Assembly (NCBI GenBank): GCA_012026795.1
Contig: VEPM01000018.1
Coordinates: 1 to 64,000 of the forward strand
DNA length: 64,000 nt
Source: Candidatus Methanoperedens sp.
GTDB taxonomy: Archaea; Halobacteriota; Methanosarcinia; Methanosarcinales; Methanoperedenaceae
Reading direction: 5' to 3'
Both the position numbers and the translations under genes were made by a program. How positions within the stretch are numbered: the stretch's first letter is position 1; each line of letters opens with the position of its first letter. Under the pieces are notes generated by a model. That model searched no databases. It was given only the letters and a program-made list of their open reading frames with translations, and was not told the DNA's origin. Positions 14,740-57,525 of the stretch are shown piece after piece.

Positions 14740-16245
14740 TCATCTCTTTCTCATCAACTGGTTGATTGCAGCCACGAGCGCTTCAACAGATGCCATTACA
14801 ATATCCTCATTCGTCGAGCGTGCTGAAACGATCCTGCCCTTTTCATCCTCGACCCCGATGAGAACCTCTGCAAGTGCGTCAGATCCGCCTGAAATGGCTT
14901 CTATCCTGAAATCGCGCAATTTGAATTTATACTCACCAAGGATGCTTGTTACTGTGTTTAGTGCAGCATCCACAGGCCCGACACCGATATGGGCGCCGAG
15001 ACGCTCCTGTCCGTTCACAATAGCCTTTACAGTCGCTGTCGGGGTTATAATGTTCCCTGTCATGACCGATACTTCTTTCAGGACGATAGCCTGCTCAGAC
15101 TTTGATATATTACCCATTATGGATTCTGCAATAGAATAGAGATCAGCATCCGTAACACGTTTGCCCTTATCGCCAATATCCTTGATGCGTTTCATTATTT
15201 CATTCAATTGCTCATCATGGGGATGCAGTCCGGCAAATTCAAGCGATTGTTTTACGGCATGCTTTCCTGCATGCTTCCCGAGCACGATGCGCCTTTTATG
15301 TCCCACCATTTCCGGGGTCATGACGCCAGGCTCAAAAGAATCTGACCGTACGAGAACTCCATGAGTATGTATGCCTGATTCATGGGCAAAAGCATTATCC
15401 CCCACAATAGGCATGGTCGGAGGCATCCTCACTTCGGTCAGTCTTTCCACAAGATGGGATGTCTCAACAATATATTTTGTTTTGATATTGGTCTTTGCTC
15501 CATATAATGCATGCAGTCCCATCACAGTCTCGGCAAGGTCTGCATTTCCTGCCCGCTCGCCAAGGCCATTGATCGTGACCTGTACCTGGCTTGCTCCTGC
15601 TTCCACAGCCGAGAGGCTGTTTGCTACTGCAAGCCCGAAATCATTATGGCAGTGCACATCGATGGGAATTTTGACGTTCTTTGCTATTTCACCTATCAGT
15701 CTATATATGGCTGAAGGAACTATCACGCCCACTGTATCTGGAACATTTATTATATCGCAGTGTGCAGATTCCACGCCTTTATAAATATTGATTAAATAAT
15801 CAGCATCCGTGCGGGTTGCATCCATGGCAGAGAACATGCATTTTGCCCCGTGGTCTTTTATATATTCCACTGCATCAATTGCCATGCTGTAGACTTCATC
15901 CCTGCTTTTCTTGATAGTTGATATCCTCTGGACATCAGAAGTTGAAACAAACGTATGTACCATATCTACGCCGCAATCAAGACAGGTATCGATATCGGAT
16001 TTTATGACCCTGGCCAGTCCGCATACCTTGAGGTTTAATCCTGCATCCACAATTTTCCTGACTGAAGCTTTTTCTCCCTCGGATGACATCGGGAAACCAG
16101 CTTCAATAATATCCACACCGAGTTTATCAAGCTGCTGGGCTATGAGAAGTTTTTCATCAAATGTAAGCGATACTCCCGGTGTCTGTTCCCCGTCACGCAG
16201 CGTGGTATCAAAAATGCTTATTTTCTTGTTCCTTAGCGATTCAAT
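14740..16245 (-). CDS. leuA: 2-isopropylmalate / citramalate synthase family (LeuA)
   Basis: The enzyme condenses acetyl-CoA with a 2-oxoacid in leucine or isoleucine synthesis. The catalytic motif FDTTLRDGEQTPG is encoded near 16175-16213. HCHNDFGLAVANSLSAVEAG and the GVGPVDAALN regulatory-domain region follow. The C-terminal LeuA dimer domain is complete, giving about 501 residues. No ATG, GTG or TTG lies in frame between the stop at 16270-16272 and the catalytic motif. ATT 16245 or ATA 16221 are candidate starts. The GTG at 16116 would remove the active site, so it is rejected. LeuA versus CimA cannot be decided by eye. Confidence 0.85.
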   Translation of the reverse strand: MESLRNKKISIFDTTLRDGEQTPGVSLTFDEKLLIAQQLDKLGVDIIEAGFPMSSEGEKASVRKIVDAGLNLKVCGLARVIKSDIDTCLDCGVDMVHTFVSTSDVQRISTIKKSRDEVYSMAIDAVEYIKDHGAKCMFSAMDATRTDADYLINIYKGVESAHCDIINVPDTVGVIVPSAIYRLIGEIAKNVKIPIDVHCHNDFGLAVANSLSAVEAGASQVQVTINGLGERAGNADLAETVMGLHALYGAKTNIKTKYIVETSHLVERLTEVRMPPTMPIVGDNAFAHESGIHTHGVLVRSDSFEPGVMTPEMVGHKRRIVLGKHAGKHAVKQSLEFAGLHPHDEQLNEIMKRIKDIGDKGKRVTDADLYSIAESIMGNISKSEQAIVLKEVSVMTGNIITPTATVKAIVNGQERLGAHIGVGPVDAALNTVTSILGEYKFKLRDFRIEAISGGSDALAEVLIGVEDEKGRIVSARSTNEDIVMASVEALVAAINQLMRKR

Positions 16246-16270
16246 GGTGTAAAAGACGATCCCTCGCGTT

Positions 16271-16335
16271 TATCATGGTTATCAAGCCTAAATATCGTTT
16301 TATGGTATAAAGGCTTTTTCTAATAAGCCATGATA
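16271..16335. promoter_or_regulatory. Inverted repeat in the leuA-vapBC divergent region
   Basis: TATCATGGTTAT (16271-16282) is matched as an inverted copy by ATAAGCCATGATA (16323-16335), with one extra base. They flank TATA-like stretches in the space between the leuA-family gene and vapB. Such a layout could be the operator of the VapBC complex or a leuA regulator site. Confidence 0.35.
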
Positions 16336-56175: not shown

Positions 56176-56286
56176 TTTATTTATGTGGTGGCATGATCCA
56201 TATCAGAATATCAAATCATCTTCAAAACAAAAGACTATAATATCTCCTGAATAGAATTAAGGCTACAAAATTATTGAGGCGATAAC

Positions 56287-57525
56287 ATAAACATACGATT
56301 CCTTGGAGGAGCAGGAGAAGTTGGACGATCCGCCATCCTGTTAAACGATGAGCTTCTTCTTGATTACGGAATTAAACCTACTGATCCGCCATCATATCCT
56401 TCAAATGGTCTTCGTCCGAAAACCATGATAATTTCCCACGGACATCTTGACCATTGCGGACTTGCCCCGAATCTCATGGATCTTGAGCCTGAGGTATATT
56501 GCACATCCCTGACTGCAAAATTATCAGGGCTCCTGGCCAGGGATACTCTTAAAATAGCAGGTAAAAAAGGCCATATTATCCCTTATTATCATGAAGAGAT
56601 CCAGGAATTCGAACGAAAAGTCAGGCCGATAGGATACAAAAAAGAATTCAATACAAATGGGTATTCTGTGTCTTTTTACGATGCAGGCCATATTCCGGGT
56701 TCTTCCATGGTGCATCTTGAAAAGGATAAACAGACCCTGTTTTATACCGGAGATTTGAACACGATCAGGACAGAACTCCAGACTGGCGCAGATACAGATT
56801 TCCCGGATAGCGATATACTTCTTATTGAAAGTACATATTTCGGGAGGGATCATACTCCCAGGAAAATACTTGAGGAACGGTTCATCGCATCAATAAGAGA
56901 AACAATTGAAAGCGGAGGAAGAGCAATAATCCCGGCTTTTGGCATTGGAAGGACTCAGGAGATCATGCTGATACTTAAAAAACACGGGCTTTTTGCATAT
57001 GTTGACGGCATGGGGGTTGATGTATTCAACCTGATCAGGAAGTCCCCTGAAAATATATCTGATATAAAGAAACTTGAAAACGCGTTCACCAGCGCAAATA
57101 TCGTAAAAAGGGAAGACAGGGAAGCTATAATAAATGAACCTTCCATAATCGTAACAAGCGCTGGAATGTTAAACGGAGGACCTGTTTTATATTATATCGA
57201 TGAGATTTTCGATGATCCCAGATCCAAGATCCATCTTACAGGTTACCAGGCAGAAAACACAAATGGAAGAAAGGCTCTTGAAAGCAGGTACATAGAAAAC
57301 GGGAAACGTACTGTCAGGCTTAATTGCGGGCTTGAGCTGTATGATTTTTCAGCACATTGCGGGGATACACAATTAAAAGATGTTGTAAAGACTTTCTGCG
57401 ACAGAGGTACGGAAACCGTTATCGCAGTACATGGTGACAACACCGGGGGGTTCGCAAATTGGGTCAATGAAGAACTTGGTGTAAAATCCCTTGCTCCTGC
57501 CAATAAAGAAACAATATACATTTAA
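56287..57525 (+). CDS. Beta-CASP metallo-nuclease (RNase J-like)
   Basis: This is a metallo-beta-lactamase-fold ribonuclease. The N-terminus NIRFLGGAGEVGRSAILLND is followed by the HxHxDH motif ISHGHLDHCG (near 51-56). GHIPGSSMVHLE, YTGDLNTIRTELQ, LLIESTYFGRDH and the beta-CASP FGIGRTQEIML with MLNGGPVL come next. No ATG, GTG or TTG is in frame from the TGA at 56275 to ATG 56425. GAGGCGAT (56276-56283) sits 3 bases before an ATA at 56287, so ATA 56287 or 56293 is the likely start, giving about 412 residues. The internal ATG would cut off the conserved N-terminus. Confidence 0.85.
   Translation: MNIRFLGGAGEVGRSAILLNDELLLDYGIKPTDPPSYPSNGLRPKTMIISHGHLDHCGLAPNLMDLEPEVYCTSLTAKLSGLLARDTLKIAGKKGHIIPYYHEEIQEFERKVRPIGYKKEFNTNGYSVSFYDAGHIPGSSMVHLEKDKQTLFYTGDLNTIRTELQTGADTDFPDSDILLIESTYFGRDHTPRKILEERFIASIRETIESGGRAIIPAFGIGRTQEIMLILKKHGLFAYVDGMGVDVFNLIRKSPENISDIKKLENAFTSANIVKREDREAIINEPSIIVTSAGMLNGGPVLYYIDEIFDDPRSKIHLTGYQAENTNGRKALESRYIENGKRTVRLNCGLELYDFSAHCGDTQLKDVVKTFCDRGTETVIAVHGDNTGGFANWVNEELGVKSLAPANKETIYI

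Follow-up and report, generated by a model that had tools for sequence, protein, structure and literature searches.

Translation starts at AUA or AUU are known in a few bacterial genes. In Escherichia coli, infC, which encodes IF3, starts with AUU and regulates its own expression (Butler et al. 1987, as cited by PMC1780047 and PMC9845219); this feedback depends on the discrimination of AUU by IF3 itself. An AUU start is also given for pcnB, encoding poly(A) polymerase I, of the same organism (Binns and Masters 2002, cited in PMC1780047). In Staphylococcus aureus, ccpN (AUA) and cvfC1 (AUU) reach about 10% of the AUG output in reporters and possess an extended Shine-Dalgarno (SD) sequence (PMC13009471). 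With regard to the protein treated here, aCPSF2 of Sulfolobus is described as a 5'-3' exoribonuclease in mRNA decay, the loss of which changes 560 transcripts, and the accessible sections of that report discuss no unusual start for it (PMC3792030). A search of the open literature found no report of a conserved AUA/AUU start in archaea, aCPSF2 included.

The window, a stretch of 64,000 nucleotides, belongs to a Candidatus Methanoperedens genome of 3.59 Mb. The nearest named record, strain BLZ2, shares 94% identity in the nuclease protein. Between positions 56260 and 56300 the window reads ...attaTTGAGGCGATAACATAAACATACGATTC..., and the following features were assigned:

56233–56243, + strand: TATA-box-like element GACTATAATAT, putative from its sequence; a similar AT-rich element is present in aligned near relatives
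56275–56277, + strand: in-frame TGA, closing the nuclease frame upstream and overlapping the SD site (TGAGGCGAT), an arrangement common to many relatives
56276–56283, + strand: Shine-Dalgarno-like GAGGCGAT, 3 nt before ATA 56287, complementary to the 16S tail GGATCACCTCCT at 7 of 8 positions
56287–57525, + strand: gene of a predicted beta-CASP ribonuclease of the aCPSF2 type, with 412 codons and a stop codon
56287–56289, + strand: ATA, almost certainly the start; relatives have ATT or ATC here, and ATG occurs in neither of two families
56293–56295, + strand: second ATA (codon 3), the alternative start of the initial annotation, unconserved as a near-cognate start
56425–56427, + strand: ATG, the first canonical in-frame codon, internal; codon 47 if ATA 56287 is codon 1, its position unconserved

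The start stretch is single-copy in its genome. After the TGA, which closes the frame three codons upstream of ATA 56287, the nuclease frame continues as GGC GAT AAC ATA AAC ATA CGA TTC CTT GGA. The sequence confirms that no ATG, GTG or TTG lies between this TGA and ATG 56425, as had been pointed out in the initial annotation. From the TATA-box-like element, transcription would start near 56262, giving a short leader that carries the SD site. A scan for sigma-70 type promoters was set aside as meaningless in archaea.

The nuclease product of 412 residues contains Pfam Beta-Casp, RMMBL and Lactamase_B domains. Its structure, predicted with a mean pLDDT of 86, finds matches in archaeal CPSF, TTHA0252 and CPSF73. 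The Beta-Casp domain and the structure-model matches bear out the beta-CASP identity proposed at the outset. The protein has the core of some 420 residues, composed of metallo-beta-lactamase and beta-CASP parts, that is typical of the aCPSF2 type. N-terminal KH domains are absent, as seen from the TGA-closed frame and from the match to the aCPSF1 model, which covers only positions 175–629. Because this match begins only after the KH domains and stays below the cut-off, the nuclease is named aCPSF2-type; a separate aCPSF1 is encoded elsewhere in the source genome. By its sequence the gene product is an aCPSF2-type beta-CASP ribonuclease with predicted enzymatic activity. It is likened to Sulfolobus aCPSF2 by type, since the latter also consists of a beta-CASP core of this length and lacks KH domains (PMC3792030).

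Codons 2–46 exhibit a dN/dS of 0.052 in comparison to 0.073 for the remainder of the gene; they are thus strongly constrained as protein and are therefore translated. The claim of a conserved N-terminus upstream of ATG 56425 is substantiated by this ratio as well as by the homologues, and the stretch comprises the first strands of the beta-CASP ribonuclease. A start at ATG 56425 with the upstream stretch left untranslated would agree with the choice that a gene finder would make, this being the first canonical codon of the frame. However, among 40 sequences the first canonical codon after the start occupies 11 different positions, ranging from 12 to 64, and the low dN/dS of the preceding codons speaks against an untranslated stretch. 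In the structure model, strands 2–6, 16–19, 23–27 and most of 46–49 precede or include ATG 56425, residues 1–40 being the least certain, and a start there would delete three core strands plus most of a fourth. We consider translation from the downstream ATG extremely unlikely.

The start region of the nuclease gene was examined in 151 genomes of the phylum Halobacteriota, which were coded; family names other than Methanoperedenaceae are inferred. Family 1 (Methanoperedenaceae, 28 genomes) has ATT in 18, ATA in 9 and ATC in 1 case, family 2 (14 genomes) ATT in 7, ATA in 5 and ATC in 2, and ATG occurs in neither. The alignment of homologues from related genomes, which had been suggested for comparison, places one of the codons ATA, ATT and ATC at this position in all 42 genomes of these two families, nearly always 3–4 nt downstream of GAGGCGAT. 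This motif stays at a fixed distance and is almost unchanged across the aligned relatives. With the ATA/ATT/ATC codon and the SD site both retained throughout 42 genomes from two families, the pattern lies far beyond chance. Five further families contribute 10 genomes with an isoleucine start codon, a few of them ambiguous: family 14, probably Methanocella (ATT 3, ATA 1), family 27 (ATC 2), family 33 (ATA 2), family 31 (ATT 1) and family 12 (ATT 1). The assignment is less sure where a GTG is also present within the SD site, in family 12 and in one genome of family 33, and in family 31, where neighbouring near-cognates leave the exact start codon ambiguous. In total, an isoleucine codon occupies the start place in 52 of the 151 genomes. 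In homologues from other Halobacteriota, ATG, GTG, TTG or CTG stands at the aligned start or no more than two codons away from it. The Methanosarcina-like family 5 has ATG in 27, CTG in 9 (mainly in two genera), TTG in 7 and GTG in 1, families 9 and 10 have ATG in 33 and GTG in 6, and in family 3 an ATG is placed two codons earlier.

The loss of a canonical start through faulty sequencing or assembly could produce an ATA in a single genome, as in fen1 discussed below, but ATA, ATT or ATC recurs at this codon in genomes that different projects obtained independently. The probability of such an error is practically negligible, and the indel that might have hidden a canonical start is excluded by the many independent genomes. 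Of the two candidate ATAs named in the initial annotation, 56287 is preferred to 56293, because codon 3 varies among relatives (ATA, CTA, TTA, CTG, ATT, ATC) whereas codon 1 is always ATA, ATT or ATC in the two families. The second ATA is also reachable from the SD site, but many relatives have CTA or TTA as codon 3. Initiation further upstream in a different frame, followed by a frameshift, finds no conserved upstream ATG in any frame; either route is very unlikely. An upstream in-frame start was rejected, as many genomes have the TGA that closes the frame. Most family 1 sequences show a stop only a few codons before the start, and in family 2 upstream canonical codons appear only in L068 and L076, where they are unconserved. 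No canonical start is able to give the conserved N-terminus, the codon aligns with the canonical starts of homologues, and it is conserved with an SD site at proper distance, as is required of a natural AUA/AUU/AUC start. On these comparisons, the translation start of the nuclease gene is almost certainly AUA 56287.

The SD-like motif three bases before ATA 56287, already recognized in the initial annotation, is found again as the element conserved in relatives. Its one mismatch to the 16S tail, C for T, is itself conserved. In nearly all genomes of the two families, the SD of aCPSF2 is GAGGCGAT and not GAGGTGAT. The 16S tail is ordinary in the five relatives examined, and an altered anti-SD was rejected on this ground; the 16S gene of the source genome was not found in its assembly. 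With an odd initiator tRNA in mind, one tRNA-Met(CAT), elongator or initiator, was detected in a scan that covered a third of the genome. We propose that the SD site recruits the ribosome to AUA 56287, where the ordinary initiator tRNA presumably inserts methionine. The initiator Met-tRNA would read AUA, AUU and AUC with a third-position mismatch, and the output would amount to a fraction of the AUG-start level. A low level may be useful because the product degrades RNA, while the conserved SD site would keep initiation sufficient. Dose control is plausible because loss of aCPSF2 alters the above 560 transcripts in Sulfolobus.

The third base of the start codon has changed at least eight times within families 1 and 2, and none of these changes led to G. 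For comparison, 57 four-fold sites of the same gene were evaluated in 40 sequences. AUG occurs in 0 of 42 genomes and at least eight third-base changes avoid G; yet two of the 57 four-fold sites are also without G in all 40 sequences, and for this reason the statistics for an avoidance of AUG are only moderate. The case is strengthened in that AUG would be the favoured codon and that all 29 genomes read for aCPSF1, the control gene, have ATG as its start.

The locus resembles infC in its conserved non-AUG start of the AUH class. A feedback of the infC kind, in which the nuclease or the initiation stringency controls its own synthesis via a discriminated codon, would fit this shared codon class (AUU in infC), the deep conservation and a product that acts on RNA. 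The ribonuclease is, however, not an initiation factor, and in contrast to infC, no corresponding feedback logic is known for aCPSF2. Further, no conserved RNA structure was found at the start, folding being no better than for shuffled sequences, and the alignment of relatives revealed no extra conserved element near it. We regard such feedback as quite improbable. By analogy to infC, pcnB and ccpN, a weak start behind a good SD site is probably kept to limit output. Similar to pcnB, the gene encodes an enzyme of RNA metabolism with an isoleucine-codon start thought to limit production. The bacterial pcnB encodes another enzyme, whereas the present gene is archaeal, interchanges AUA, AUU and AUC and has a low output only by inference. 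With ccpN and cvfC1 it shares a conserved AUA/AUU start behind an extended SD site. Those bacterial starts were confirmed by ribosome profiling and reporters, whereas the aCPSF2 start is predicted from sequence and its SD has one conserved mismatch.

Other near-cognate starts were surveyed in 1.2 of 3.6 Mb (956 gene-like ORFs, about a third of one genome). Selected were ORFs in which a strong SD is followed by an in-frame ATA, no canonical start has an SD in front of it, and at least 46 coding-like codons come before the first canonical one. Three of the 956 ORFs qualified, the nuclease gene being one of them. ORFs with a strong SD and a canonical start use ATG in 98 of 110 cases; near-cognate starts are therefore rare. 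A dolichol-phosphate-mannosyltransferase-like (DPM1-like) glycosyltransferase (C7:80687–81406, minus strand; L369–L398) starts with ATA in 15 loci of Methanoperedens, while two others (L377, L381) have ATG at this codon. As the ATA aligns with the ATG of these two congeners, it stands in for ATG. The glycosyltransferase copies of families 2 and 3 seemingly also lack canonical starts. In purH (C8:17771; L185:17771–19369, + strand; L205–L230), CTG behind RAGGTGAT is found in 26 of 26 Methanoperedens, and related families show TTG at the corresponding place. For fen1 (C7:92187–93200, + strand; L335), ATA GGG GTT GAC occurs only in the source genome, with ATG in 27 relatives. This ATA is either a recent change or a sequencing error; an SD-like GAGGTG lies nearby. 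Judged by these alignments, a few genes of Methanoperedens combine a near-cognate start with a good SD site, and aCPSF2 is the most deeply conserved isoleucine-codon start among the survey cases.

Such starts in several unrelated genes (ATA in fen1 and the glycosyltransferase, CTG in purH) mean that initiation may simply be less stringent in this lineage, with no control specific to the nuclease gene. Near-cognate starts without a regulatory role would then persist by drift wherever the SD is strong enough. However, AUG is absent in 42 genomes of two families though a single transition from AUA restores it, aCPSF1 retains ATG in all 29 genomes, and the canonical ORFs with a strong SD predominantly use ATG as given above. 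Drift is possible, though on the unlikely side. We hold with good confidence that AUA 56287 is the SD-recruited start of an aCPSF2-type nuclease, a weak codon probably kept for low output, and the isoleucine-type start of these methane-oxidising archaea looks like an old, maintained means of keeping production low. A more far-reaching version, in which aCPSF2 dose follows initiation stringency, AUG is excluded by selection across several Halobacteriota families and Methanoperedens runs a small set of AUA/AUU/CUG-start genes as an archaeal counterpart to infC and pcnB, appears unlikely.

The initial annotation considered a single locus; beyond it, the non-AUG start turned out to be conserved, to switch among three isoleucine codons and to be common to a few genes of the genus. 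The 42 genomes with AUA, AUU or AUC and never AUG, along with the further families, provide a natural test of weak-start retention and of how archaeal initiation discriminates codons. In these archaea, such proteins are likely annotated short by about 10–60 residues, or missed, by standard gene finders.

Two further genes were noticed. In a truD-like gene (C6:60422–61780, + strand) the first 79 codons are without a canonical codon, pointing to a possible ATT/ATC start. A 2-isopropylmalate/citramalate-synthase-like gene in the window (14740–16310, minus strand; L235–L264) has the main frame GIVFYxxES...DTTLRDGEQ, often with TGA directly before GGG and without a canonical start; an in-frame ATG is present in some genomes, where the source genome has ACG. 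Synonymous changes fall in the main frame. An upstream start in one other phase, for example ATG ATA AAC GCG AGG GAT CGT CTT TTA CAC CAT TGA, with the stop at the identical place, was observed in 30 of 30 loci of three families, which makes this gene a candidate for a programmed +1 frameshift or an overlapping leader peptide.
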